The position numbers and the translations under genes are program-made. From the IMG/VR virus record IMGVR_UViG_3300006071_000068, positions 1-28,886 of that record: DNA of 28,886 bases, one strand, 5' to 3'. Of this stretch, positions 17,196 to 28,357 are shown in pieces. Under the pieces are notes generated by a model. That model did no database searches. It saw nothing but the letters and a program-made list of their open reading frames with translations, and had not been told where the DNA came from. Position 1 is the first letter of the stretch; the number at the start of each line of letters is the position of its first letter. This DNA is from a virus.

Positions 17196-18125
17196 ATGAC
17201 TATGACCACAATCGCCCCAACGGGGAGAAAGGTAAAATACCTAAACAACAGAGATTTATTAGCAGAAATACACCGTTCAAAATGTTCTTATTCAAGTTTT
17301 ACAAAACCTGAATACCAACAATATGATATTATTTTAGCCGATCTCAAGAAAGTCAATATCAGAACTATCGCAGATGCAAAAAGAGCTCGCGCTAAGAGAT
17401 TAGGACTAATAGCATTTTCACAAGCCAGGGCTAGCGGCGACAAAAAGATCAAGCTAGCCGAATGTACTCCAGACTACAAAACTATTGCTAAAACAGATAT
17501 TGTCATTCGTATTATGACATTTGAGCATATTCCACTTGCTCCTGGACGTAAAAAGACTGTTAAAAGCACCGCAGATGGTCACGAAAAAGTAAATTTCCCG
17601 CCATTCCAACATTGGAAATTTGACGATAATCAACCAGATCAATTGATTTGCGTAGGTAAAAGCCACTGGAAGGGTTCAATTGATACTGGCAAATTTGACA
17701 AAGATAATGGCAGAATCACAGAAAATCTAGGTAAGATGTTTATTAAACTCAGCGACAGATATGCACAGCGTAGCAACTGGCGTGGGTATACCTATGTAGA
17801 AGAAATGAAGGGTCAAGCGATTCTTCAGTTAAGTCAAATTGGTTTACAGTTTGATGAATCTAAATCAGAAAATCCTTTTGCTTACTATACTGCCGCAGTT
17901 ACTAACAGTTTTACTCGTATTCTAAACATTGAAAAGAAAAGTCAAAACATCCGTGATGACTTGTTAGAAGAAAATGGCCTAACACCAAGTATGACTCGAC
18001 AAAATAGCCAAGAGTATGCTGAAGAAATTGCACGGCAAGCAGAGATTTATAAAAACATGCGTATGCCAAAGAGCGAAGATGTTGATGACGAGGAAGAAAC
18101 TGAAAACGACAACATTATTCCTTGA
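17196..18125 (+). CDS. 55: Late-transcription sigma factor gp55-like, with internal extension
   Basis: The product has 309 residues; T4 gp55 has 185. The core at about 180-250 is the gp55 family: KLSDRYAQRSNWRGYTYVEE, then LQFDESKSENPFAYYTAAVT and NSFTRILNIEKK, equivalent to the sigma region 2 segment that binds RNA polymerase and the late -10 element TATAAATA. The N-terminal KYLNNRDLLAEI (14-25) matches the T4 gp55 opening (YVNNKELLQAI). Between the two lies about 130 residues absent from T4, containing a basic KRARAKRLG stretch and IRIMTFEHIPLAPGRKKTVK ... NFPPFQHWKF. The C-terminus is acidic and lacks the T4 clamp-contact sequence SLDFLYE. It is the first plus-strand gene of the gp55-47-46 island. 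Confidence 0.85.
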   Translation: MTMTTIAPTGRKVKYLNNRDLLAEIHRSKCSYSSFTKPEYQQYDIILADLKKVNIRTIADAKRARAKRLGLIAFSQARASGDKKIKLAECTPDYKTIAKTDIVIRIMTFEHIPLAPGRKKTVKSTADGHEKVNFPPFQHWKFDDNQPDQLICVGKSHWKGSIDTGKFDKDNGRITENLGKMFIKLSDRYAQRSNWRGYTYVEEMKGQAILQLSQIGLQFDESKSENPFAYYTAAVTNSFTRILNIEKKSQNIRDDLLEENGLTPSMTRQNSQEYAEEIARQAEIYKNMRMPKSEDVDDEEETENDNIIP

Positions 18126-18150
18126 TCTTTACTTACAGTCACGCTATACT
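18122..18150 (+). promoter_or_regulatory. Candidate sigma70-type promoter for gp47-gp46
   Basis: TTGATC (18122-18127) and TATACT (18145-18150) have the ideal 17-base spacing. The -35 overlaps the gp55 stop codon. Transcription would start about 10 bases before the strong ribosome site AAGGGAGAA that precedes the gp47 ATG at 18168. Confidence 0.5.
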
Positions 18151-18167
18151 TTTAAAGGGAGAATTAT

Positions 18168-19181
18168 ATGAACCTATTTAAAAAGGTAGCGTGTTTTACA
18201 GATATACACTTTGGTTTAAAATCAAATAGTGGCACACATTTAAAAGATTGTGAAGAATTCGTAGATTGGTTTATTTCAACCGCCAAGGAGCAAGGGTGTG
18301 AAACTTGCATATTCCTTGGTGATTGGAGTCACAATCGAAATAGCCTTAACTTGTTTACCTTAGATAGTAGTTTACGCTGTCTAGAAAAGTTAGGGGCGGC
18401 ATTTGAAAATTTTTACTGGTTTCCCGGCAACCACGATTTGTTTTACAAAGACAAGCGTGACATTCATTCATCGGCGTTCGGTCGCCATATACCTGGGGTC
18501 ACTGTTGTAGATAGTATTATGACCCAGGGTGATGTTACCCTAGTCCCATGGCTTGTCGGGGAAGAGTGGAAAACTATTAGCCAAGTCAACAGCCGATACA
18601 TGTTTGGACATTTTGAATTACCGTTGTTCTATATGAACGCTATGGTACAAATGCCCGACCATGGTGAACTACAGGCTAGTCACTTTAAAAATCAAGAATA
18701 TGTGTTTAGTGGACACTTCCACAAACGTCAGAATCGAGATAAGATCCATTACATTGGCAATGCATTTCCTCATAACTTTGCTGATACAGGGGATGACGAA
18801 CGTGGTATGATGATTTTAGAATGGGGTGGAGAACCTCAATATATTAATTGGGAGAATTGTCCCAAGTATAGAACAACTAGTTTGAGCACTCTAATTGACG
18901 AGGCTGATACTATTCTAAAATCAAAGATGCACATCAAGGTAAACTTAGACATTAATATTACTTTTGAAGAAGCAAACTTTATTAAAGAAAAGTTTTTAAC
19001 TGATTATGATATCAGAGAAATTAGTCTTGTTCAAGATAAAACCAATTTAGACGGTACCGTAGATACAAATCCAGATAGCCTATTTGAAAGCGTAGATCAA
19101 ATTGTCACTGAAGGATTAGTTAATTTAGAAAACGGCGCTTTTGATAAAAACACACTCTTACAGATTTATAACGAACTATAA
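18168..19181 (+). CDS. 47: Recombination endonuclease subunit gp47-like (Mre11 family)
   Basis: The product has 337 residues (T4 gp47: 339). All metallophosphoesterase motifs are present in order: TDIHFG (D12, H14), GDWSHNR (51-57), GNHD (87-90), MFGHFE (H148) and GHFHKRQ (182-188). These coordinate two metal ions for nuclease activity. With gp46 it forms the Mre11/Rad50-type complex that resects DNA ends, feeding strand invasion and recombination-dependent replication; in T4 it is also involved in host DNA breakdown. The gene follows gp55 by 42 bases that hold a sigma70-like promoter and an AGGGAG ribosome site. Its stop overlaps the gp46 start by one base (TAATG), so the two subunits are probably translationally coupled. 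Confidence 0.95.
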   Translation: MNLFKKVACFTDIHFGLKSNSGTHLKDCEEFVDWFISTAKEQGCETCIFLGDWSHNRNSLNLFTLDSSLRCLEKLGAAFENFYWFPGNHDLFYKDKRDIHSSAFGRHIPGVTVVDSIMTQGDVTLVPWLVGEEWKTISQVNSRYMFGHFELPLFYMNAMVQMPDHGELQASHFKNQEYVFSGHFHKRQNRDKIHYIGNAFPHNFADTGDDERGMMILEWGGEPQYINWENCPKYRTTSLSTLIDEADTILKSKMHIKVNLDINITFEEANFIKEKFLTDYDIREISLVQDKTNLDGTVDTNPDSLFESVDQIVTEGLVNLENGAFDKNTLLQIYNEL

Positions 19182-20965
19182 TGTCATTTCACATCAAGAA
19201 TTTAACAGTAAAAAACTTTATGAGTGTGGGCAACCAGACTCAAGCTGTAGACTTTGAACAATCATCACTGACACTTGTACTAGGTGAAAACTTAGACTTG
19301 GGTGGAGATGATACAGGCTCTCGAAATGGTACAGGTAAAACTACAATTATCAATGCGTTAAGTTATGCATTGTATGGCCAAGCTCTTACAAACATTAAGA
19401 AAGAAAACTTAATTAATAAAACCAACGGAAAAAATATGTTGGTTACTGTAGAGTTTGAAAAAGATGGAAACAATTATCGCATTGAACGTGGACGCAAGCC
19501 CAATGTTTTAAGATTGTTTGTCAATAATGATCAGCTAAAAACTGACGAAACAGATGACGATGCACAAGGTGATAGTAGAGATACACAAAAATCTATTGAG
19601 CAGATGTTGGAAATGTCACACACAATGTTTAAGCACATTGTGGCATTGAACACATACACTGAGCCATTTTTAAGTATGCGGGCCGCTGATCAACGAGAAA
19701 TTATTGAACAGTTGTTAGGTATTACATTGTTAAGCAGTAAAGCAGAAGCATTAAAATCTAATTTAAAAGATACTAAAGATGCGATTGTAATTGAAACTGC
19801 CAAGATTGAAGCAACTAAAGTTGCCAACGATAACATACAAAAAAGTATTGATAGTTTAATTAACCGTAGAAACGCTTGGGAAACTAAGAAAGAACAAGAC
19901 ATAAACGGATTAATTAAAAGCATAGAGACTTTATCTACTGTTGATATTGCCAATGAATTAGATTTACATGCCCAACTTAAGGTATGGGAAGAAAATAATT
20001 CTAAGATTGTGGGCTTACAAAAACAAAAGGCTACATTAGAAGCCGCATTGATGCAGGCTGAAAAAGCCAGTGACAAGTATCAGAAAGAATTAGAAAAGTT
20101 AAAAGATAAGACATGTCCTGCGTGTGAACAAGATCTTCATGATCATAAACATGAAGAAATGAACGCTGTAGCACAAAAGCATTTTAATGAATCTGTAGAA
20201 TATGGTATCAAAATTGGTAATGATTTAATTCCTATCTTGGATGAATTAGAAGCTATAGGTAAACAACCCAAACGTCCTATTACTTTTTATGACACTGAAT
20301 CAGAAGCATTGGGTCACAAAAATAATTTAGATGCATTAGAACGTAAATTAACTGAACGTGCTGATGAAAATAATCCCTATGATGAGCAAATTGACGAATT
20401 AAAAAATTCCGCATTGCAAGAAATTTCATGGGATACTGTAAACGAATTAACAAAATTCAAGGATCATCAAGAGTATCTATTAAAATTGCTAACCAACAAA
20501 GATAGTTTTATTCGTAAAAAGATCATTGATCAAAACTTGAGTTATTTAAATAAGCGTCTAGGTTACTATATTGACAAGTTGGGTTTACCACATCGTGTTA
20601 TATTCCAAAATGACTTGGGTGTAGAAATTACTCAATTGGGTCAAGATTTAGACTTTGATAACTTGTCACGTGGTGAACGCAATAGGTTAATTTTGAGTTT
20701 AAGTTTTGCTTTCCGAGATGTTTGGGAAGGCTTATACCAAAGTATGAATTTATTGTTTATTGATGAACTTGTAGATTCTGGTATGGATAGTGCAGGCGTC
20801 GAAAGTTCACTTGCAGTACTTAAAAAGATGACTCGTGAACGAAACAAAAACATTTATTTGATTAGTCATAAAGATGAACTGATGGGTCGAGTGAATAACA
20901 TACTCAGAGTGGTAAAAGAAAATGGATACACTTCATACAGCAACAGTACAGACTTTGTTGAATGA
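19181..20965 (+). CDS. 46: Recombination endonuclease ATPase gp46-like (Rad50 family)
   Basis: The product has 594 residues (T4 gp46: 560). The Walker A motif is GSRNGTGKTT (46-55). A long coiled coil follows, broken at its apex by a zinc-hook motif CPAC (C312, C315) with EQDL after it, as in Rad50 dimerisation hooks. The second coil is followed by the ABC signature LSRGERNRLILS (from 495), Walker B LLFIDE (524-529) and the C-terminal LISHKDE switch. It is therefore a complete SMC-type ATPase and should drive gp47 nuclease activity on DNA ends. It overlaps gp47 by one base and the next small gene by 44 bases. Confidence 0.95.
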   Translation: MSFHIKNLTVKNFMSVGNQTQAVDFEQSSLTLVLGENLDLGGDDTGSRNGTGKTTIINALSYALYGQALTNIKKENLINKTNGKNMLVTVEFEKDGNNYRIERGRKPNVLRLFVNNDQLKTDETDDDAQGDSRDTQKSIEQMLEMSHTMFKHIVALNTYTEPFLSMRAADQREIIEQLLGITLLSSKAEALKSNLKDTKDAIVIETAKIEATKVANDNIQKSIDSLINRRNAWETKKEQDINGLIKSIETLSTVDIANELDLHAQLKVWEENNSKIVGLQKQKATLEAALMQAEKASDKYQKELEKLKDKTCPACEQDLHDHKHEEMNAVAQKHFNESVEYGIKIGNDLIPILDELEAIGKQPKRPITFYDTESEALGHKNNLDALERKLTERADENNPYDEQIDELKNSALQEISWDTVNELTKFKDHQEYLLKLLTNKDSFIRKKIIDQNLSYLNKRLGYYIDKLGLPHRVIFQNDLGVEITQLGQDLDFDNLSRGERNRLILSLSFAFRDVWEGLYQSMNLLFIDELVDSGMDSAGVESSLAVLKKMTRERNKNIYLISHKDELMGRVNNILRVVKENGYTSYSNSTDFVE

Positions 20966-21266
20966 GCCACTTGAAGAGTATAACAAGTTATACTCAGATT
21001 ATTTGGCCTTGATCTTAAAGATACATAACTACAACACGAAGTTTCTTAGTTTCGATGCTCTAAGAGTTAGAGACGGGTATAAGTTGAGAAAACTTTTCAA
21101 AGAAATGAGAAAACTTCAGACTGAGTTATGGCGTACTTGCAAAGATGCAGATTACAAACACTGGGAATTAAATCCCCCAGTGCGCGGACGACCATTACAG
21201 GAAACTACTAAATGGCCAAGGCGTAAGAAAAAGAATGTGGCTCCACCAGGATCAGATCGTAAATGA
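20922..21266 (+). CDS. Small basic protein of unknown function after gp46
   Basis: I do not recognise this 114-residue protein. The first ATG overlaps the end of gp46 by 44 bases and has only a weak AAAGAAA before it. No good internal start would keep most of the protein. It is predicted to be mostly helical for residues 1-80 (LEEYNKLYSDYLALILKIHN, then KLRKLFKEMRKLQTELWR). A basic, proline-containing tail follows (RGRPLQE, WPRRKKK, ending PPGSDRK), which could touch nucleic acid. The overlaps on both sides (gp46 and the GIY-YIG gene) suggest co-translation with the recombination genes and a possible accessory role in DNA metabolism. That is inference only. Confidence 0.65.
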   Translation: MDTLHTATVQTLLNEPLEEYNKLYSDYLALILKIHNYNTKFLSFDALRVRDGYKLRKLFKEMRKLQTELWRTCKDADYKHWELNPPVRGRPLQETTKWPRRKKKNVAPPGSDRK

Positions 21267-21657
21267 ACTACCAGAAGACTGTGTAGGGTTTGTGTACCTG
21301 ATAACCAATCTAACAAATAATAGAAAATACGTAGGCAAGAAATTAGCAAAATTTAGTAAAACAACTTATAAAACAGTAAAATTAAAAAACGGCACAAAGA
21401 AAAAGAAGAAGATCAGAAGCAAAATAGATAGCGACTGGCAAGAATATTATGGATCAAGCAACGAACTCAGTGCAGATGTTGCGAACTTAGGCAAAGAAAA
21501 TTTCAAAAGAGAGATATTATACTACTGTCGTAGTAAAGCAGAATGTAGTTACATTGAGGCCCGCGAACAATTCGACCGCAAAGTATTGGAATCTACAGAC
21601 TACTATAATGGACAAATCTCGGTCCGTGTACATGGCTCACACATTTTAAAGAAATAA
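21235..21657 (+). CDS. GIY-YIG-type nuclease
   Basis: The product has 140 residues. The GIY-YIG elements are recognisable: GFVYLITNLTNNRKYVGKK (Y21 in the first strand, Y32 in the YVG strand), a basic stretch with KKKKK, then DWQEYYGSS, KENFKREILYYC and YIEAREQFDRKVL (E108, the expected metal-binding glutamate), closing with YYNGQI (N125). GIY-YIG enzymes include phage homing endonucleases such as I-TevI and the Seg proteins, but free-standing small members also occur in aquatic T4-like phages. No separate DNA-binding domain is visible, so a compact nuclease is more likely than a full homing enzyme. It overlaps the preceding gene by 32 bases and is followed directly by the structured non-coding region. 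The start codon is uncertain; the ATG at 21235 lacks a close Shine-Dalgarno. Confidence 0.75.
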   Translation: MWLHQDQIVNELPEDCVGFVYLITNLTNNRKYVGKKLAKFSKTTYKTVKLKNGTKKKKKIRSKIDSDWQEYYGSSNELSADVANLGKENFKREILYYCRSKAECSYIEAREQFDRKVLESTDYYNGQISVRVHGSHILKK

Positions 21658-21660
21658 TTC

Positions 21661-21990
21661 AGGAATGGCTCGCATCGGCCTAGCTCGGGTGCCTAGTGAC
21701 AACTCTATAAAATGAGGGACGGAAGTCTTGCCGCTGAAGCAAGCACTCATCTACTACCCGAAAGGATGAAGATCGTAAAACGCTTACGGTTTAGATGTTT
21801 GAAGATAATGAATAAGCAAAATGAGGGTTAATAACCCACGTTATTATGCAAGATAGTATTTGTATAATAACCGCCGCTGGATGAAGACTGAGCTCGTGGT
21901 ACAGGCCAACCGCCACTGTAATGCTCTAATACTATGTGACTGAGTCGACTCAGATGATGTTCTTTCGCCCGCAAGGGCGAAGTGTGACCA
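21661..21990 (+). ncRNA. Candidate structured non-coding RNA
   Basis: No convincing gene lies between 21658 and 22107. By hand count 21661-22000 is about 46% G+C, above its surroundings. Visible stems: 21712-21716/21746-21750 enclosing 21727-21731/21739-21743; 21774-21778/21784-21788; 21825-21829/21833-21837; a 12-bp stem 21840-21851/21860-21871 with one G-U; 21940-21944/21949-21953; and 21964-21970/21975-21981 closed by a GCAA tetraloop. The loop of the 12-bp stem (21853-21859, ATAGTAT) is complementary to 21929-21935 (ATACTAT), allowing a 7-bp pseudoknot. No tRNA, tmRNA or intron core was recognised. Strand is assigned from the flanking genes. Short ORFs here (16, 39 and 20 codons, starting at 21665, 21712 and 21881) could mean it is partly coding. 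Confidence 0.5.
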
Positions 21991-22011
21991 AACAATCTAG
22001 ATGATATTAAA

Positions 22012-22074
22012 ACTTCTACGAAGTAAAAAATGCTTCAAGCGATAGCGTAGAAGCAATTGAGCTAAAGCTCAATT
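22012..22074 (+). other. Hairpin cluster upstream of the late promoter
   Basis: CTTCTACG (22013-22020) can pair with CGTAGAAG (22046-22053). Alternatively two smaller hairpins can form: ACTTC/GAAGT (22012-22016/22020-22024) and TGCTTC/GAAGCA (22031-22036/22050-22055). A perfect 8-bp hairpin AATTGAGC-TAAA-GCTCAATT follows (22055-22074). It ends 5 bases before the late promoter and may insulate it from upstream transcription, but there is no U-run, so a classical terminator is not supported. Confidence 0.45.
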
Positions 22075-22079
22075 CTATA

Positions 22080-22087
22080 TATAAATA
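22080..22087 (+). promoter_or_regulatory. T4-type late promoter (perfect TATAAATA)
   Basis: TATAAATA matches the T4 late consensus exactly. The expected start site is near 22093, followed by a ribosome site AAGGA (22096-22100) 7 bases before the ATG at 22108. The gp55 needed to read it is encoded in the same window. Confidence 0.7.
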
Positions 22088-22107
22088 AATCATCAAAGGA
22101 ATTAGAT

Positions 22108-23025
22108 ATGAAATTCGACGAGTTATTAGAAGCACCTATGGGGTTTGGGAGTACTTTAAAAACTGCTGCCAAAGCAATTAACCCTTTTAGTCTAAGTGGA
22201 AGAAAGCAAGCACAGGGGCAACTTAGTACTGGTAAAACTGCTAATCAAATATATGGCGAATTCTATAAATGGCTAGGTACGTCAGGTGCACCAGCCGACA
22301 CTGATTCCGTTGTTGCTTTCCTTCAACAAAACGGGTATAGTCAACAAGCAATACAAGCCGCTCAATCTAAATTCCCCCAAGCACCTGCCGCTGATCAAAC
22401 ACAAACTCAACAACCCCCTGCAGATAATAAAGTTGAACCAACTTTAGATAATCCAACTCAACCACAAAAACTGACTCCGGATCAAATTGCGGCGCAAAAA
22501 TCTCAAAGAAAACAAAATATATCTAATTTAAAAAAGAATCCTAATCAAAACGGGTTTAGCAACTGGGCCAAATCTGGTGGTGTTAATCCTGGAGTAGATC
22601 CTAATGCGCCATCTGTACAGAAGAATTGGAGAGAATCTCGCATAATGGAAGGTGTTGCATTAAACAAAGATCAACTTAGTGCAATTTTTACAAGTGTAGC
22701 ACAAGCTGGAAGTGCCCCAACTACTGGTCAAAGCAGTGCAGGTAATGCTACTGTACAGCCAAGTTATAATCAAAGCACAGCTGGATCAAGAAATCAAAAG
22801 GCTCCTCCAGTGCAACGACCACAATTGACTGTTGATTCTGTAGTTGAATTTTACAAGACACTAGATACTAACGGTAAACAACAATTAAAAGATGCGATTG
22901 CTACTGTTGACCAAGGTGCTGTTGATCAAAATCAACCTAAACTTTCACCTGACGAGTATATTAGTAGGATTGGAGCAGAACCAACTCCAGAAAGTTACAG
23001 CCGTTTCTTAGGACGTAGTCTTTAA
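22108..23025 (+). CDS. Low-complexity protein with capsid-targeting-like N-terminus, possible internal head protein
   Basis: I do not recognise the family of this 305-residue protein. It begins MKFDELLEAPMG, which resembles the capsid-targeting leader of T4 internal proteins (MKTYQEFIAEA) and contains LLE|A (6-9), matching the T4 prohead protease rule (L/I)-x-E followed by a small residue. A second match, IME|G, is at 179-182. The rest is Gln/Pro/Ala/Asn-rich, with short ordered segments at about 44-85 (YGEFYKWLGTSG) and 240-300 (VDSVVEFYKTLDTNGKQQLK). No enzyme motif or membrane segment was seen. It sits alone behind a perfect late promoter with a good ribosome site, and its stop overlaps that of the convergent gene by 4 bases. 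Late expression plus the leader suggest a protein packed in or on the head; this is inference. Confidence 0.7.
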   Translation: MKFDELLEAPMGFGSTLKTAAKAINPFSLSGRKQAQGQLSTGKTANQIYGEFYKWLGTSGAPADTDSVVAFLQQNGYSQQAIQAAQSKFPQAPAADQTQTQQPPADNKVEPTLDNPTQPQKLTPDQIAAQKSQRKQNISNLKKNPNQNGFSNWAKSGGVNPGVDPNAPSVQKNWRESRIMEGVALNKDQLSAIFTSVAQAGSAPTTGQSSAGNATVQPSYNQSTAGSRNQKAPPVQRPQLTVDSVVEFYKTLDTNGKQQLKDAIATVDQGAVDQNQPKLSPDEYISRIGAEPTPESYSRFLGRSL

Positions 23026-23243
23026 AAGAAAGGTAGTTGACTTTCTTTAGTTGTTTGTAAGTTCTTTTCAATTATCGAATATATGATTTGACGCTCTTCT
23101 GGCGTTAGCATATGGCTTTCGTTGTATCCAACTCCACCTCGCATAAACCAACATATTCTTAAAAGATCTTCTTTTAGGGCTTTTGTATTGTTGTCGTATT
23201 CTTGAATAACACGATCGATGTCGGCAGTCTCAACAATAGACAA
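23022..23243 (-). CDS. Small gene after gp26, possible baseplate-hub assembly factor
   Basis: The 73-residue product starts with TTG at 23243, 5 bases after the gp26 stop; no ATG is usable without losing most of the protein. AAGG precedes the start at short distance. The segment LLRICWFMRGGVGYNESHML then PEERQIIYSIIEKNLQTTKE is a pattern I associate with the short gene that follows gp26 in aquatic T4-like phages, sometimes labelled gp51-like. T4 gp51, a hub-assembly factor, is far longer (about 249 residues), so equivalence is doubtful. The protein is predicted helical. Its stop overlaps that of the convergent 305-residue gene by 4 bases. A hub-assembly role is inferred from the pairing with gp26. 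Confidence 0.65.
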   Translation of the reverse strand: MSIVETADIDRVIQEYDNNTKALKEDLLRICWFMRGGVGYNESHMLTPEERQIIYSIIEKNLQTTKESQLPFF

Positions 23244-23248
23244 AAGCC

Positions 23249-24139
23249 TTATACGAAAAAATTTGAAGCATCAAACACCAACGGAATTTCAATAGTATCG
23301 CCGTTGATTCCTTTTTCACGCATTTCATCTGTGACGGTCACTACAACAGGTTTAACTGTGTTTTGCTCTTTTAATGATTCTAAATGCGTTTGGATTTTAT
23401 TAAAAATGTCTTTATCAGCATTGGCAACAAAGTCTTTAATAAATTGTGGATTGTCGGTACTGCCTTGACTGGTGTCAATTTTAAAAATGCTGTCAGCAAT
23501 TACGCCAATAGTAGCATCTGTTAACTTTCTAAAACTATCTTTGAACATAGTTACTTTTGTATCTTCGTCCAACTTGTCATTGTTAGTCAATTGAATAATT
23601 TTTTGAGTTTCAAATGTTTGTAGAGCCGCGTTAGTTGCTTGTCTATAAGTTAGAGGTTTGACATACACGGTCATGTCGTCGCTAATTGGAATAATAGGAT
23701 TCCAACTAATTGAACGCATCAAATTGTCAATGACAGTTCGCAAGTCTACTTTATATTCATATTCAATGTCTTCGCTGATATTGATAGGACTGGACATCAT
23801 TTCACCATAACTGGCAATTCTTAATGCAATTAAAATAACATCCATATCAATGTTTGGAGTCATCCAAGCATTTTTAATATTAGGTATACAATTTTGAATA
23901 ACATCAACTACCGCTTGCCCATTCATAAGAGCATCTGGAACATTTAACATTAGTTCATCTTTAGCAGTCATCGAGTAAACTGGCAGTTTACCGTCTTCGG
24001 GTAATTGAATGCTGCCAGGTGCCCAGTACTGTCCTTTGCTGGGCAAGCTGATATACACCTTGGGTTGACGCATAAACATGGACAAAGGGTTTACTGGTGC
24101 ATTGTTCGCTTGTGGCGGGAACATTACGTTATTTTGCAT
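23249..24139 (-). CDS. 26: Baseplate hub subunit gp26-like
   Basis: The product has 296 residues (T4 gp26: 208). After a short leader the family hallmarks appear: KVYISLPSKGQYWAPGSI (about 27-44), PVYSMTAKDELMLNVPDAL (54-72), NGQAVVDVIQNCIPNIKNAW (73-92) and DVILIALRIASYGEMM (about 99-114). The C-terminal half is helical and matches the extended version seen in aquatic T4-like phages. In T4, gp26 acts in assembly of the central baseplate hub. The start has a good ribosome site (CGGAG, then 7 A's and the ATG). A perfect minus-strand TATAAATA lies 53 bases upstream. With its small downstream gene it forms a two-gene minus-strand unit flanked by plus-strand genes, apart from the main baseplate operon. 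Confidence 0.85.
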   Translation of the reverse strand: MQNNVMFPPQANNAPVNPLSMFMRQPKVYISLPSKGQYWAPGSIQLPEDGKLPVYSMTAKDELMLNVPDALMNGQAVVDVIQNCIPNIKNAWMTPNIDMDVILIALRIASYGEMMSSPINISEDIEYEYKVDLRTVIDNLMRSISWNPIIPISDDMTVYVKPLTYRQATNAALQTFETQKIIQLTNNDKLDEDTKVTMFKDSFRKLTDATIGVIADSIFKIDTSQGSTDNPQFIKDFVANADKDIFNKIQTHLESLKEQNTVKPVVVTVTDEMREKGINGDTIEIPLVFDASNFFV

Positions 24140-24150
24140 TTTTTTCTCCG

Positions 24151-24158
24151 AATAAATA
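24151..24158 (+). promoter_or_regulatory. Candidate late promoter for the tape measure-portal unit
   Basis: AATAAATA (7 of 8 to the late consensus) lies 67 bases before the tape-measure ATG. It is left of the minus-strand promoter at 24193-24200, so the two transcripts would overlap in antisense for about 24 bases. A ribosome site AGGAAAA precedes the ATG at 24226. Confidence 0.4.
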
Positions 24159-24192
24159 ACTTAAAGATATAAGGTAGTCTTATCCTTTAGAG

Positions 24193-24200
24193 TATTTATA
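24193..24200 (-). promoter_or_regulatory. T4-type late promoter for gp26 (perfect TATAAATA)
   Basis: The minus strand reads TATAAATA exactly, 53 bases before the gp26 ATG, in the 86-base divergent gap 24140-24225. The expected start is near 24187, giving a leader of nearly 50 bases. Confidence 0.6.
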
Positions 24201-24225
24201 TACGCAGAAAACCCCAGGAAAAACA

Positions 24226-26586
24226 ATGGCTGAAGTCACAGGAACACTAACAGGCGCAGATGGCGTTCAAGATGTCATTTTAAATAATGCGGCTACCGAA
24301 GCGACTTTAAGGTTACTGCTCCAAGCTACCTTAGCCACTACTAAAGAACAGCGCGATGCCATTAAAGAAATGGCTGACAAGGTGGGTCTAAGCAATGAAA
24401 CTATTGATGAGACCAACAGAAAAACTGCTCAACTTGGCAACAACGCCAATCAACTTTCAGACAAGTTTACAAATTTATCAATAGTTGCTAGTCAAGTAAG
24501 TAATGCATTTTCATCTTTATATGGAGCCACTGCTAAATTAACATCTGGTACTGGTAGCCTAGCTGATGTATTAGGCAGTTTTGCTAAATTGCCATTAGGT
24601 ATTGGGGCAGTTGCGGGTGGATTGCAACAGTTGGCTACTTACCAAGAAACTATGCTTAAATCGTACAGATCGGTAGCTGATGCTGGAGCAAGTTTTGGAG
24701 GAAGTTTAACTGAATTACGATTGGCTGCAAGTAATTCATATTTGACACTAGCAGAGTTTACCAATGTCATAAAAACTAACAGTACTACCTTAGCCAAAAT
24801 GGGCGGCACTGTTACTGAAGGTGCTCGTGCATTTGCTGTATTGCAAAATTCAATTATGAGCGGCAAAATCGGCGACCAACTATTATCCTTAGGATATAGT
24901 TCTGAAGAAGTTGGTAATGGCATGTTAGGATTCATTACTGCTACAGGTGGTAGATCAAAAACTGAATTGGCCAACACCGCGGCTCTAACTGAAGCTACTG
25001 GTCAGTACTTAACTGAATTAGATAAACTATCAGAGTTTAGTGGTATTAGTAGAAAACAACAAGAAGAAGAAATGAAAAAAGCTGCCAGTCAGGCAGCATA
25101 CCAGCGGGCATTATCAAAACTTTCAGAAGACCAACGAGCCAGAGCCGCTGTGGGGTTACAAGCGGCTATTAATTCAGGTATTCCTGGTGCGGTCGAAGCG
25201 TTCCAATCTAAGATTGCTGGCTTACCGCCCATGACTGATGATGCTAGAAAATTTACAGGTATGTTCGGCGAAGCAGCCGATGGTGTAAATCAAATGGCCG
25301 ATGCGGCACTTGATACTAAAGGTACAATGGATCAAGTTGAGCAGGGATTTGGTAACTTTAATCAAGGTATAGTTGAACAAGTTGATGCACTTGGCACTGC
25401 TGGCGATGCAATGACATTCAGTAATAAACTAATGAATGCCGCAAGTTTGAATGCAACTAATTTGATTAAAAAAGGTGCAGATACTGCGGCTGGCACAATT
25501 AATTTATTTCACGAGATTACCAAAGATCAAGCTGAGCGCAATAGTTCGCAAGCTAAACAAGCCGCAGAAAGCGAACAGGCAATTAAACAAATGGGGCAAA
25601 GTATATTGAATAATTTATTGCCTATCATTGCAGATTTACTAACACCTTTAAATTATTTGGTACAGGGTTTTGGGTATTTGGTAAGTTCGTTAGGTAAAAG
25701 CAGAATATTATTTGATGGCTTGGCGATTGCATTAGGTGCAGTTGTCACTGGGCTTATTGCATACAAGGCCTACATTGGAGTACAAAATTTAACTAATGCG
25801 TTCACTGCGGCGCGTGGTGGAAGAGGTGGAATTGGTGGAGTTGCTCGAGGATTAGCCGGAGTTTTAACCAAGCGTGACGGCCAATCTCCAGGAACTGCGT
25901 TATATGTAGAAGTTGTTGGTGGAGGTGGTGGCGCAGGTGGAGTAATAGAAGATTTATTAGGTGGCGGTGGAGAAGGGAAATCATCAACCCGAACAGCTAG
26001 AGAAGCAAAAGCAAATCAATTAAGATCGAGAAAATTAGGTCTAGGTAAAAACTTCTTAAAATATGCATCTAAATTAAAAGGTGTTGCTGGTGTTGGCACT
26101 GTGCTAGGCGGATTAGAAGCTGGTGGCGAAGTATTAGATATTGAAAAACAAGTTGAAGCAGGCACTATTACCAAACAGGAAGCTAGAAAACAAGAAGGCG
26201 GTATTGCTGGCGGGTTAGCAGGTGGCGCCGCAGGCGGTTGGGGCGGAGCAGCCGCTGGTGCGGCAATTGGAACAATGATATTCCCAGGCGTAGGAACTGC
26301 TATCGGTGGCTTAATTGGTGGTATTGGTGGCGGATTCTTAGGTGACAAGATTGGAAAAATTGCTGGTGAGTTCGTTGGTGATAAACTTAGTTCAGAAAAT
26401 AAGAGCACAGATCCTGCACAACCATCATCAAGTGGCAATAGCATGGATCCAGAACACAAAGCACTAATGAACAAACAATTAGAAATATTAGAACAACAAC
26501 GTCTGTTGCAAGAAAAACAATTGCAACATTTAGATGATATCAACGATAACACCGAAGGGAAAAAGAGTTGGTTGTGGGGACACTAA
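24226..26586 (+). CDS. Tail tape measure protein (gp29-like role)
   Basis: The product has 786 residues (T4 gp29: 590). Residues 1-130 are helical and hydrophilic (LRLLLQATLATTKEQRDAIK). A long helical, Ala/Gly/Ser-rich body follows. A membrane-length hydrophobic helix lies at about 497-520 (GLAIALGAVVTGLIAYKAYI). Gly-rich linkers follow at 532-590, then an extreme glycine-zipper region at about 655-710 (AGGLAGGAAGGWGGAAAGAA). The C-terminus is a predicted coiled coil (KQLEILEQQRLLQEKQLQHL). Long helices with internal hydrophobic segments are the hallmark of tape measures, which set tail length and may enter the host membrane during DNA injection. It is followed by the portal gene after 28 bases. 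No metallopeptidase or lysozyme motif was seen. Confidence 0.75.
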   Translation: MAEVTGTLTGADGVQDVILNNAATEATLRLLLQATLATTKEQRDAIKEMADKVGLSNETIDETNRKTAQLGNNANQLSDKFTNLSIVASQVSNAFSSLYGATAKLTSGTGSLADVLGSFAKLPLGIGAVAGGLQQLATYQETMLKSYRSVADAGASFGGSLTELRLAASNSYLTLAEFTNVIKTNSTTLAKMGGTVTEGARAFAVLQNSIMSGKIGDQLLSLGYSSEEVGNGMLGFITATGGRSKTELANTAALTEATGQYLTELDKLSEFSGISRKQQEEEMKKAASQAAYQRALSKLSEDQRARAAVGLQAAINSGIPGAVEAFQSKIAGLPPMTDDARKFTGMFGEAADGVNQMADAALDTKGTMDQVEQGFGNFNQGIVEQVDALGTAGDAMTFSNKLMNAASLNATNLIKKGADTAAGTINLFHEITKDQAERNSSQAKQAAESEQAIKQMGQSILNNLLPIIADLLTPLNYLVQGFGYLVSSLGKSRILFDGLAIALGAVVTGLIAYKAYIGVQNLTNAFTAARGGRGGIGGVARGLAGVLTKRDGQSPGTALYVEVVGGGGGAGGVIEDLLGGGGEGKSSTRTAREAKANQLRSRKLGLGKNFLKYASKLKGVAGVGTVLGGLEAGGEVLDIEKQVEAGTITKQEARKQEGGIAGGLAGGAAGGWGGAAAGAAIGTMIFPGVGTAIGGLIGGIGGGFLGDKIGKIAGEFVGDKLSSENKSTDPAQPSSSGNSMDPEHKALMNKQLEILEQQRLLQEKQLQHLDDINDNTEGKKSWLWGH

Positions 26587-26587
26587 G

Positions 26588-26607
26588 AGTAAATAACTAA
26601 CTTGGAG
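26588..26607 (+). promoter_or_regulatory. Portal start region: GTAAATA element and Shine-Dalgarno for a TTG start
   Basis: AGTAAATA (26588-26595) is a weak late-promoter match. GGAG at 26604-26607 is a clear Shine-Dalgarno 7 bases before TTG at 26615. The frame has a stop upstream (TAA at 26594-26596) and no ATG between, which fixes TTG as the portal start. Confidence 0.5.
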
Positions 26608-26614
26608 AAATAGA

Positions 26615-28357
26615 TTGTCTTGGAAAAAATACTTTACGCCTGTTAATATATCAGGAAAAAACAGTCCTATTAGCGGTAGTACTAGTTTGAACTTGGGCAA
26701 TAATCCTAGCCGTTCAAATTATAGTAGCTATTTGCCTGACGTTTATGCTGGCCATCCTAACCGTTTAGAGCGTTATGGGCAGTATGATACAATGGACAGC
26801 GACAGTGAAGTTAACGCGGCATTCGATATCTTAGCCGAATTCTGCTGTCAATTAAACGAAGAAAACGGCACTCCGTTCCAAATTAAATTTAAAGAACAAG
26901 CAACAACTACTGAAATTAAGATTATTAAAAAGTATCTACAACAGTGGTGTAAGTTAAACAAATTCCCTGTTCGTATGTTTAAAATCGTACGAAATGCATT
27001 TAAATTTGGTGATAGTTTCTTTGTACGTGACCCAGAAACACAGGCTTGGATGTATGTAGATCCTGCTAAAGTAGACAAAATTATTGTTAATGAAAGCGAT
27101 GGCAAAAAGCCAGAGCAATATCACATTCGTGATTTTAACCCAAACTTTGAAGCCCTAAGTACAACGGCTATTCAACCTAGCAATCAAAACGGTGGCGGAA
27201 GTCAGTTTGGTGGAAGTTATGGAAGCGGTGGTGGAGCCGCAGGTGGCGCACGAGGCATGGTGGGATCATTCCCTACAACTGCCAATAGTAGCCGCTTTAG
27301 TGAAAATCAAAACCAATACGCTATTGATGCTAGACACGTTATTCACATTTCAATGAGTGAAGGACTGGACAATAACTTCCCATTTGGTAATAGTTTGATG
27401 GAAAGTATCTTTAAAGTCTTTAAACAAAAAGAACTTTTAGAAGATGCTATCCTTATCTATCGTATACAACGTGCTCCAGAACGGCGTGTATTCCACATTG
27501 ACGTAGGTAATATGCCCAGTCACTTGGCCATGGCATTCGTTGAACGTGTTAAAAATGAAATTAACCAACGCCGTATTCCAAGTGCAGGTGGCGGTGGACA
27601 AAGTTTAATTGACGCAAGTTATAATCCGTTGAGTATCAACGAAGATTATTTCTTCCCAACGACCGCTGAAGGCCGTGGTAGTAAGGTTGAAATCTTACAA
27701 GGCGGACAAAACTTAGGAGAAATTGATGACCTTAAGTACTTTACTAACAAATTGTTTAGAGCTTTGCGGATTCCTAGCAGTTACTTACCTACTGGTTCGG
27801 ATGATGGAGGAAGCAACTACAATGACGGACGAGTCGGGACAGCCTTTATACAAGAGTTACGGTTCAACAAATACTGCGAAAGACTCCAATCTTTAATTAC
27901 AGACCCATTTGATATTGAGTTCAAAGCATATCTACATACACAAGGTATCAATATTGACAGCAATATTTTTGACCTAAAATTTAATCCTCCACAAAACTTT
28001 GCGTCATATCGCCAAGCAGAAATGGATACTGCCCGTGTTAATACATTTAACACTATGGTAGCTATTCCGTTTATCAGTAAACGCTTTGCTCTAGAACGAT
28101 TCTTAGGACTAACAAGAGAAGAAATCGCACAAAATGCTACTCAGTGGAAAGAAGAAAATGTTGATGAAGACCAATTCCTAAGTGCAAGTAGTGAAATGCG
28201 TAGCGCAGGAATTACTGCCAACGGCATGGCAGGAGACATTGGCAGTTTAAGTGCCCCGACACCCGAAGAAGGAGCAATGGGCGGAGAAGGCGATGAAGCC
28301 GCAATGGCACCAACACCAGGTGGAGACACTGGTGAAGCCGCTACTCCTGCCGCATAA
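26615..28357 (+). CDS. 20: Portal vertex protein gp20-like
   Basis: The product has 580 residues (T4 gp20: 524). Conserved portal segments are unmistakable: LERYGQYDTMDSDSEVNAAF (51-70), LLEDAILIYRIQRAPERRVF then HIDVGNMP (about 272-300), GRGSKVEILQGGQNLGEIDD (about 351-370), RALRIPSSYLPTG and YNDGRVGTAFIQELRF. The dodecameric portal starts head assembly, is the channel for DNA packaging with the terminase, and later joins the neck. Two oddities: a Gly-rich insertion at about 191-217 (NGGGSQFGGSYGSGGGAAGG) and an acidic Ala/Pro/Gly tail of about 35 residues. The start codon is TTG with a good ribosome site. It follows the tape measure; a small gene and a gp67-like gene follow, as in the T4 20-67 order. 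Confidence 0.95.
   Translation: MSWKKYFTPVNISGKNSPISGSTSLNLGNNPSRSNYSSYLPDVYAGHPNRLERYGQYDTMDSDSEVNAAFDILAEFCCQLNEENGTPFQIKFKEQATTTEIKIIKKYLQQWCKLNKFPVRMFKIVRNAFKFGDSFFVRDPETQAWMYVDPAKVDKIIVNESDGKKPEQYHIRDFNPNFEALSTTAIQPSNQNGGGSQFGGSYGSGGGAAGGARGMVGSFPTTANSSRFSENQNQYAIDARHVIHISMSEGLDNNFPFGNSLMESIFKVFKQKELLEDAILIYRIQRAPERRVFHIDVGNMPSHLAMAFVERVKNEINQRRIPSAGGGGQSLIDASYNPLSINEDYFFPTTAEGRGSKVEILQGGQNLGEIDDLKYFTNKLFRALRIPSSYLPTGSDDGGSNYNDGRVGTAFIQELRFNKYCERLQSLITDPFDIEFKAYLHTQGINIDSNIFDLKFNPPQNFASYRQAEMDTARVNTFNTMVAIPFISKRFALERFLGLTREEIAQNATQWKEENVDEDQFLSASSEMRSAGITANGMAGDIGSLSAPTPEEGAMGGEGDEAAMAPTPGGDTGEAATPAA

Follow-up and report, generated by a model that had tools for sequence, protein, structure and literature searches.

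The window, which is the whole stretch of viral DNA analyzed here (28,886 nucleotides; IMG/VR record IMGVR_UViG_3300006071_000068), carries a T4-like block of genes at positions 17196–28357. This block includes a gp47-like metallophosphatase (18168–19181), a gp46-like ATPase (19181–20965), and the T4 portal protein gp20 (26615–28357; PF07230, E = 3e-105). The gene for a SegE-like GIY-YIG endonuclease is followed by a gap of 450 bases (21658–22107) that extends from the SegE stop codon (21657) to the ATG of the next gene (22108), a presumed late gene whose product has no Pfam match. The gap is present as an earlier note on this DNA had described it, and the elevated G+C content given there from a hand count (about 46%) agrees with the computed value of 46.1% at 21661–21990, whereas the window as a whole has 37.0% and the SegE gene 35.9%. 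A T4-type late promoter −10 box, TATAAATA, lies at 22080 and is the sole plus-strand copy within the window. Across homologous loci, an exact late promoter box is found within 60 nt after the RNA described below at 35 of 147 loci, versus 2.8 expected, and in the 60 nt before the RNA at none of 144.

Structure and limits of the RNA

Comparative evidence proves that the gap contains a structured RNA. A total of 147 dereplicated sequences of 415–483 nt were aligned, and a weighted covariation scan of this set identifies helices along the whole gap. The structure was evaluated on a separate, diverse alignment of 50 sequences drawn from the 147, in which no pair is more than 80% identical. Of the 74 base pairs proposed, 64 show two-sided compensatory changes, and these changes are the evidence that counts, since the structure was derived from related sequences and the percentage of cells paired (91.6%) is thereby favored by construction. 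The covariation score is 0.579, compared with 0.219 when the partners are shuffled and 0.08–0.10 when they are slid, and on each of five measures all 500 shuffles fall short of the observed value. Folded on its own, a single sequence is only marginally more stable than its shuffles (z = −1.99; 2 of 100 are equally good), so energy alone is no proof of structure.

The elements of the structure are collected in Table 1. The earlier note had predicted a structured phage noncoding RNA with a pseudoknot, to be checked by covariation among homologous gaps, and the covariation bears this out, with a signal that is lost on sliding. The 12-bp stem and the GCAA-capped stem that it listed were both recovered, and the pairing that it proposed between a loop and a downstream segment (pseudoknot C) is perfect in the window. 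The 3'-terminal hairpin covaries and is followed by the late promoter box; consequently, the RNA is taken to be independent of the next gene and a putative stand-alone transcript.

Table 1. Positions of the RNA, its structural elements, and the flanking features, numbered as in the window.
Feature	Position	Strand	Evidence and remarks
SegE-like GIY-YIG endonuclease gene	21235..21657	+	Pfam PF19835 SegE_GIY-YIG, E = 6e-34; context, outside the RNA
Whole RNA, ~420 nt	21657..22080	+	Ends placed from conservation and covariation, ±10 nt; homologues 415–483 nt
Pseudoknot A: 21658–21662 with hairpin loop 21734–21738	21658..21738	+	Two-sided changes in 4/5 pairs; 69% of cells paired, outer pair weakest
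RF01718-covered part	21667..21800	+	cmscan, 83.1 bits
Pseudoknot B: 21667–21669 with 21678–21680, crossing 21672–21676 with 21688–21692	21667..21692	+	92.7% and 98.8% of cells paired; covariation
Long-range helix 21748–21753 with 21792–21797	21748..21797	+	98% of cells paired; two-sided changes in 5/6 pairs
12-bp stem 21840–21851 with 21860–21871	21840..21871	+	Two-sided changes in 12/12 pairs
Pseudoknot C: 21853–21859 with 21929–21935	21853..21935	+	Two-sided changes in 7/7 pairs; 96.2% of cells paired
Pseudoknot D: 21876–21880 with 21906–21910, crossing 21890–21893 with 21923–21926 and 21896–21899 with 21913–21916	21876..21926	+	97%, 100%, and 100% of cells paired; two-sided changes in 8/13 pairs
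R1 heptamer AGATGAT	21952..21958	+	Preceded by invariant ACUC; equals R2 in 146/147 homologues
GC hairpin with GCAA loop, between R1 and R2	~21963..21982	+	Sequence; present in aligned homologues
R2 heptamer AGATGAT	21999..22005	+	Preceded by invariant UCU; equals R1 in 146/147 homologues
Stem with conserved GAGC-GNNA-GCGAA-type loop	22032..22054	+	Two-sided changes in 5/5 pairs; 68% of cells paired, gappy alignment
3'-terminal hairpin, terminator-like	22056..22073	+	Two-sided changes in 7/7 pairs; 94% of cells paired
Late promoter −10 box, T4-type	22080..22087	+	Between the RNA and the next gene
Next gene, presumed late gene	22108..23025	+	Open frame; context

A cmscan search assigns 21667–21800 to the Rfam family RF01718 (Polynucleobacter-1) with 83.1 bits (cut-off 37; E = 1.7e-16), and the match spans the full 141-nt model with no truncation. 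The window RNA belongs to Polynucleobacter-1 by model score. The RNA continues past the end of the model, with covarying helices and pseudoknots for a further ~270 nt, and covariation spans 21658 to 22073. RF01718 is only the first (5') third of an RNA of ~420 nt, and the complete object is approximately three times longer than the curated family. The Rfam search suggested by the earlier note therefore did yield a match, to an uncharacterized family that could not be recognized from the letters alone and only over the first third of the RNA; the right boundary that it placed at 21990 was too short, as covarying helices reach 22073. Its statement that the region fits no tRNA, tmRNA, RNase P, or intron is in agreement with ARAGORN, which reports no tRNA or tmRNA in the window, and with Rfam, where the group I and group II intron models give no match even at E values up to 10. 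Rfam likewise provides no match above threshold to ToxI or other antitoxin RNA families and no sequence match to GOLLD, ROOL, or OLE.

Polynucleobacter-1 was introduced by Weinberg et al. in 2010 (PMC2864571), where it is listed as a probable RNA and probably cis-regulatory, with sources in Burkholderiales from fresh water or estuary; within the library of papers searched, the name appears solely in that survey. The window RNA and the curated family share the full model and a freshwater setting. In contrast to the curated family, which stops at ~21800, the window RNA adds pseudoknots, a module containing the heptamers R1 and R2, and a terminal hairpin, and RNAs of its type are located in T4-like phages and in mobile elements containing DUF6641 and a recombinase.

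The equal heptamers R1 and R2

Unbiased column statistics reveal that some pairs of columns in the alignment covary by identity, not by complementarity. These columns correspond to R1 and R2, which are equal in all 47 members of a dereplicated set, among which ten different words occur, and in 146 of the 147 sequences in the larger set, where the single exception differs at one base. Both alignments can test equality because their sequences were chosen by other motifs (three further locus sets came from DNA patterns of conserved stretches, none of which specified the heptamers), whereas a census requiring at least 6/7 equality cannot. On a tree built without the R1 and R2 columns, 62 of 62 inferred changes in R1 fall on the same branch as, and are the same change as, one in R2, for which the changes total 63. 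Neighboring pairs of columns at the same offset of 47 coincide only 0–3 times, except at the two edges of the repeat unit, 21947/21994 (16) and 21960/22007 (7). Change in the heptamers is slower than elsewhere in the RNA, and a divergent virus retains the equality with the word GGTCAAG. To our knowledge, equal heptamers of this kind have not been described.

Both words occur in near-duplicate settings of the form GUGAC..NNA-YYY-R7. The three bases that precede them are invariant and yet different, CUC before R1 and UCU before R2, in 147 of 147 sequences. Gene conversion of the repeat unit is an unlikely cause of the equality, because this invariant difference persists immediately beside the repeats. 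In two loci of a minority type with the word GCATAAT (L013, L379), the sequence around R1, CGCATAATGT, resembles the XerC half of dif sites; the likeness is probably due to chance, as the other types of R lack it.

Distribution in phages and bacterial elements

SegE-like proteins are found in at least 585 viral stretches, and an Rfam search places the RNA just after SegE in 13 of 20 sampled loci. Among 32 whole viral or phage records, 19 contain RF01718 above the cut-off, with one copy per record, and the RNA occurs in hundreds of freshwater T4-like phages. SegE is upstream of the RNA, in the same direction and with a median gap of 12 nt, in 132 of the 133 phage loci with enough sequence. The link to the GIY-YIG gene drawn in the earlier note therefore stands as one of position. 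It need not be one of function: common descent of phage gene order accounts for the adjacency equally well, and the bacterial relatives have no neighboring SegE. A similarity search of isolated phages found neither the window RNA nor a related RNA; four of these phages with a SegE relative (Melnitz, ACP17, C48C1, and V45v66) are without the RNA, and in phages that lack it another gene follows SegE. Three divergent viral copies of RF01718 (L385, L390, L410) have a 3' part without the ACUC/AUCU flanks, and a shorter repeat, CGCAG, may replace R1 and R2 in them.

The 3' module is also found on other 5' scaffolds. Some phages without RF01718 have an RNA after SegE that carries the R1/R2 module at its 3' end and a 5' half with no Rfam match. 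A covariance model of the 3' module built here detects it in these phages with E values of 1e-16 to 5e-8; the model recovered 8 base pairs with the hairpin misaligned and is thus close to a sequence profile. The words in these RNAs (ACATGAA, ACAGAAA, AGATAAT, AGATGAA) are equal within each RNA. A second scaffold containing GCGAGTCGATGTAGGTTGGGAAAG, present in 27 viral stretches (L025 3418–3900, L077 3680–4160, L070, L671–L697) and without an Rfam match, ends in the module with the word ACATGAA, or ACAGAAA in L070. A third, located after SegE in L054 and L075 (3417–3830) and also without an Rfam match, combines a GGTACCGGTCAACCGCC core with the module. The GGUACCGGUCAACCGCC stretch of the main RNA type is present in one of the other scaffold types and absent from the other, and the alternative 5' halves could be either distant relatives or replacements.

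In bacteria, RF01718 has a patchy distribution in Burkholderiales (Comamonadaceae, Sterolibacterium, and others). Among 90 genomes from a single genus, 7 score above the cut-off, with up to two copies per genome. Sequence patterns scanned against bacterial genomes gave chance matches for the most part, and of 5 genomes retested with the family model, 2 proved real. The bacterial copies have R1 and R2 with the CUC/UCU flanks or close variants but with other words (ATCGAAAG, ACCAAAAG, AGTGAATG, GCAAATG), and some pairs match at 6 of 7 positions, the mismatch being an edge base. These copies diverge from a gene for DUF6641 (PF20346) and are located between it and a small tyrosine recombinase. The recombinase (~200 aa) is encoded on the strand of the RNA in 20 of 22 DUF6641 loci fetched, mostly 1–5 kb from DUF6641, and the RNA is recognized in about half of the 22. 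Several of the loci also have in common genes for an AAA ATPase, for two unknown proteins, and for an integrase of full size, and on this basis they are read as a mobile element. No SegE gene adjoins the bacterial relatives, and no bacterial copy was found on a plasmid.

A group of Burkholderiales loci (L520, L521, L560–L579) represents a family of mobile elements centered on DUF6641; it combines DUF6641, the divergent RNA, the ~200-aa tyrosine recombinase, the AAA ATPase, unknown proteins of ~284 and ~291 aa, and an integrase of 453 aa, and their genomes have up to 8 copies of DUF6641. A protein resembling tRNA-guanine transglycosylase (DpdA-like, as judged by eye) is encoded near the bacterial copy in L521 (6198–7493). 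One copy is broken (L523, G051:C4); it is identical to L529 for ~220 nt and then continues into unrelated sequence, and the break adjoins a gene for a lytic transglycosylase.

Proposed mechanism and alternative explanations

A partner for the heptamers has been sought within the RNA, nearby in cis, and in trans. Within the RNA, the best other column for position 21952 has a covariation score of 12.7, compared with 143 for R2, and no other R column has a partner near the R1–R2 score. Exact complements of R are absent from any fixed place in the RNA or within 4 kb, and exact complements, a permutation test, and covariation all fail to identify a partner in cis. In three phage records, complements of R are not enriched (26, 21, and 9 sites, versus 29.3, 20.3, and 7.2 expected), none lies near a start codon, and in the parts alignable as DNA only R1 and R2 switch with the phage's own word, with no third site. 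With the patterns used, neither an R site nor an alignment could be obtained for one larger phage record (G016), which therefore adds nothing to these tests. The joint change of R1 and R2 and the absence of a third site leave three options, a shared external nucleic acid, the annealing of a copy, or DNA exchange, and an external base-pairing partner is left as most likely because the copying, recombinase, and protein-reader options are disfavored, as discussed below.

The overlaps used by lambda-type integrases are seven bases long and must be identical, with any sequence allowed. R1 and R2 could accordingly be 7-bp crossover regions of a tyrosine recombinase, functioning as a site at the DNA level, and the ~200-aa recombinase on the RNA's strand in most DUF6641 loci is consistent with this idea. 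It is nevertheless very unlikely, as no Phage_integrase domain was found in 20 phage records, inverted arm sites around R are absent, the pseudoknotted structure requires an RNA, and a spacing of 47 bp between the repeats is too short for ordinary excision; moreover, no clean R-to-R deletion allele was seen, the one deletion (L415) not being at R. Alternatively, the module could be an A-B-A' template, in which a polymerase copies R2, the hairpin, and R1, after which the newly made R1 copy anneals again at R2 and tandem-repeat DNA results. Matching, freely varying A and A' are the reported signature of the DRT10 ncRNA (PMC12632851), and the likeness to this RNA and to telomerase RNA templates lies in the equal words that flank B. 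The partner would then be the copy itself, which would account for the missing complementary third site. In contrast to those systems, a reverse transcriptase is mostly missing here (no RVT_1 in 20 phage records, nor in 9 of 11 RNA-bearing bacterial genomes), and B is long (~40 nt) and holds a strong GC hairpin, whereas repeat addition by DRT10 is undetectable with a 20-nt insert (PMC12632851); we give copying very little credence. All absences given in this text, including that of DUF6641 from the phage records, are provisional, because a virus record may be only a fragment and a MAG may lack part of its genome. It is also conceivable that R1 and R2 are equal sites for one protein, either a dimer or a ribonuclease that frees the 47-nt R1–R2 piece, loosely like a type III antitoxin. 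The near-duplicate settings and the A-rich words fit such a role, the bacterial copies have a conserved small protein, DUF6641, as a neighbor, and ToxI and other type III antitoxin RNAs similarly have direct repeats, pseudoknots, and an interplay with phages. Unlike them, the window RNA is not a tandem array, its phage copies have no adjoining toxin gene, and no antitoxin family, ToxI included, matches above threshold. Furthermore, the phages lack DUF6641, and 62 concerted changes would demand as many shifts in specificity. Such repeated change is unlikely for a protein and is tolerated by base pairing, and the protein-site explanation as a whole is judged unlikely.

Other explanations place the function outside the heptamers. 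GOLLD and ROOL are larger than the window RNA, and we know of no equal heptamers in GOLLD, ROOL, or OLE. These RNAs form RNA-only complexes (PMC12286853), and by analogy the window RNA might be a scaffold that forms oligomers, with R1 and R2 a side issue; it too is large, ornate, borne by phages or mobile elements, and without a protein gene of its own. It has no sequence match to those families, and intermolecular contacts should appear as internal complementarity, whereas R1 and R2 match by equality, not by complementarity, which makes oligomer formation quite unlikely. A riboswitch-like leader regulating the following gene in cis would agree with the 'y' for cis-regulation in the original description of Polynucleobacter-1 (PMC2864571) and with the position of the RNA ahead of a gene that is read the same way. 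Between the RNA and that gene, however, lie a hairpin resembling a terminator and a late promoter; in bacteria, a different gene comes next in that direction, and the RNA diverges from DUF6641. Only a slim chance is left to such a leader. The earlier note also raised the possibility of a relic of a mobile intron-like element linked to the nuclease. More broadly, the RNA could be a remnant or component of a mobile intron or of a homing cassette that goes with SegE; the adjacency of SegE in nearly all phage loci and the different 5' scaffolds that share the place after it would speak for this. This we regard as the least probable explanation of all, given that no intron family matches, that structural selection is strong with no decay, that phages without the RNA carry another gene after SegE, and that bacterial relatives exist without SegE.

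Our preferred reading, held tentatively and at a little short of an even chance, is that of a trans-acting, stand-alone phage RNA of ~420 nt, an extended Polynucleobacter-1, in which R1 and R2 pair with one external nucleic acid. The RNA would probably arise by read-through of the SegE operon, or else be started at a promoter within that operon, and the transcript would end at the hairpin ahead of the late promoter of the next gene. The pseudoknotted body would then present the 3' module, with R1 and R2 unpaired on either side of the GC hairpin. Both heptamers would pair with the same external nucleic acid, which would differ between phages, such that a change in one heptamer would force the same change in the other and a single RNA molecule would offer two equal docking sites. 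The external partner would probably be encoded by the host or by a defense system. Against an external partner, the slow evolution of R fits an arms race poorly, and the searches in cis and in three phage records provided no partner. A further proposal, possible and rated clearly short of even, concerns the 3' module itself (CUC-R7, hairpin, UCU-R7): it may be a new RNA device in which heptamer identity is selected, used by phages and bacterial mobile elements on at least two scaffolds, and read by a variable partner in trans or by copying or strand exchange without a known reverse transcriptase.

Covariation by identity between columns is a generic search signal that methods restricted to structure, such as RNAalifold and CM pipelines, do not seek. 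The equality of two unpaired words across 62 changes is a rare and clean mechanistic clue that can be tested with single mutants, and it points to a partner or process that must read both words. What has been filed since 2010 as a family without a function makes up the 5' third of a large RNA with pseudoknots, one that is common in freshwater T4-like phages and is shared with DUF6641/tyrosine-recombinase elements.
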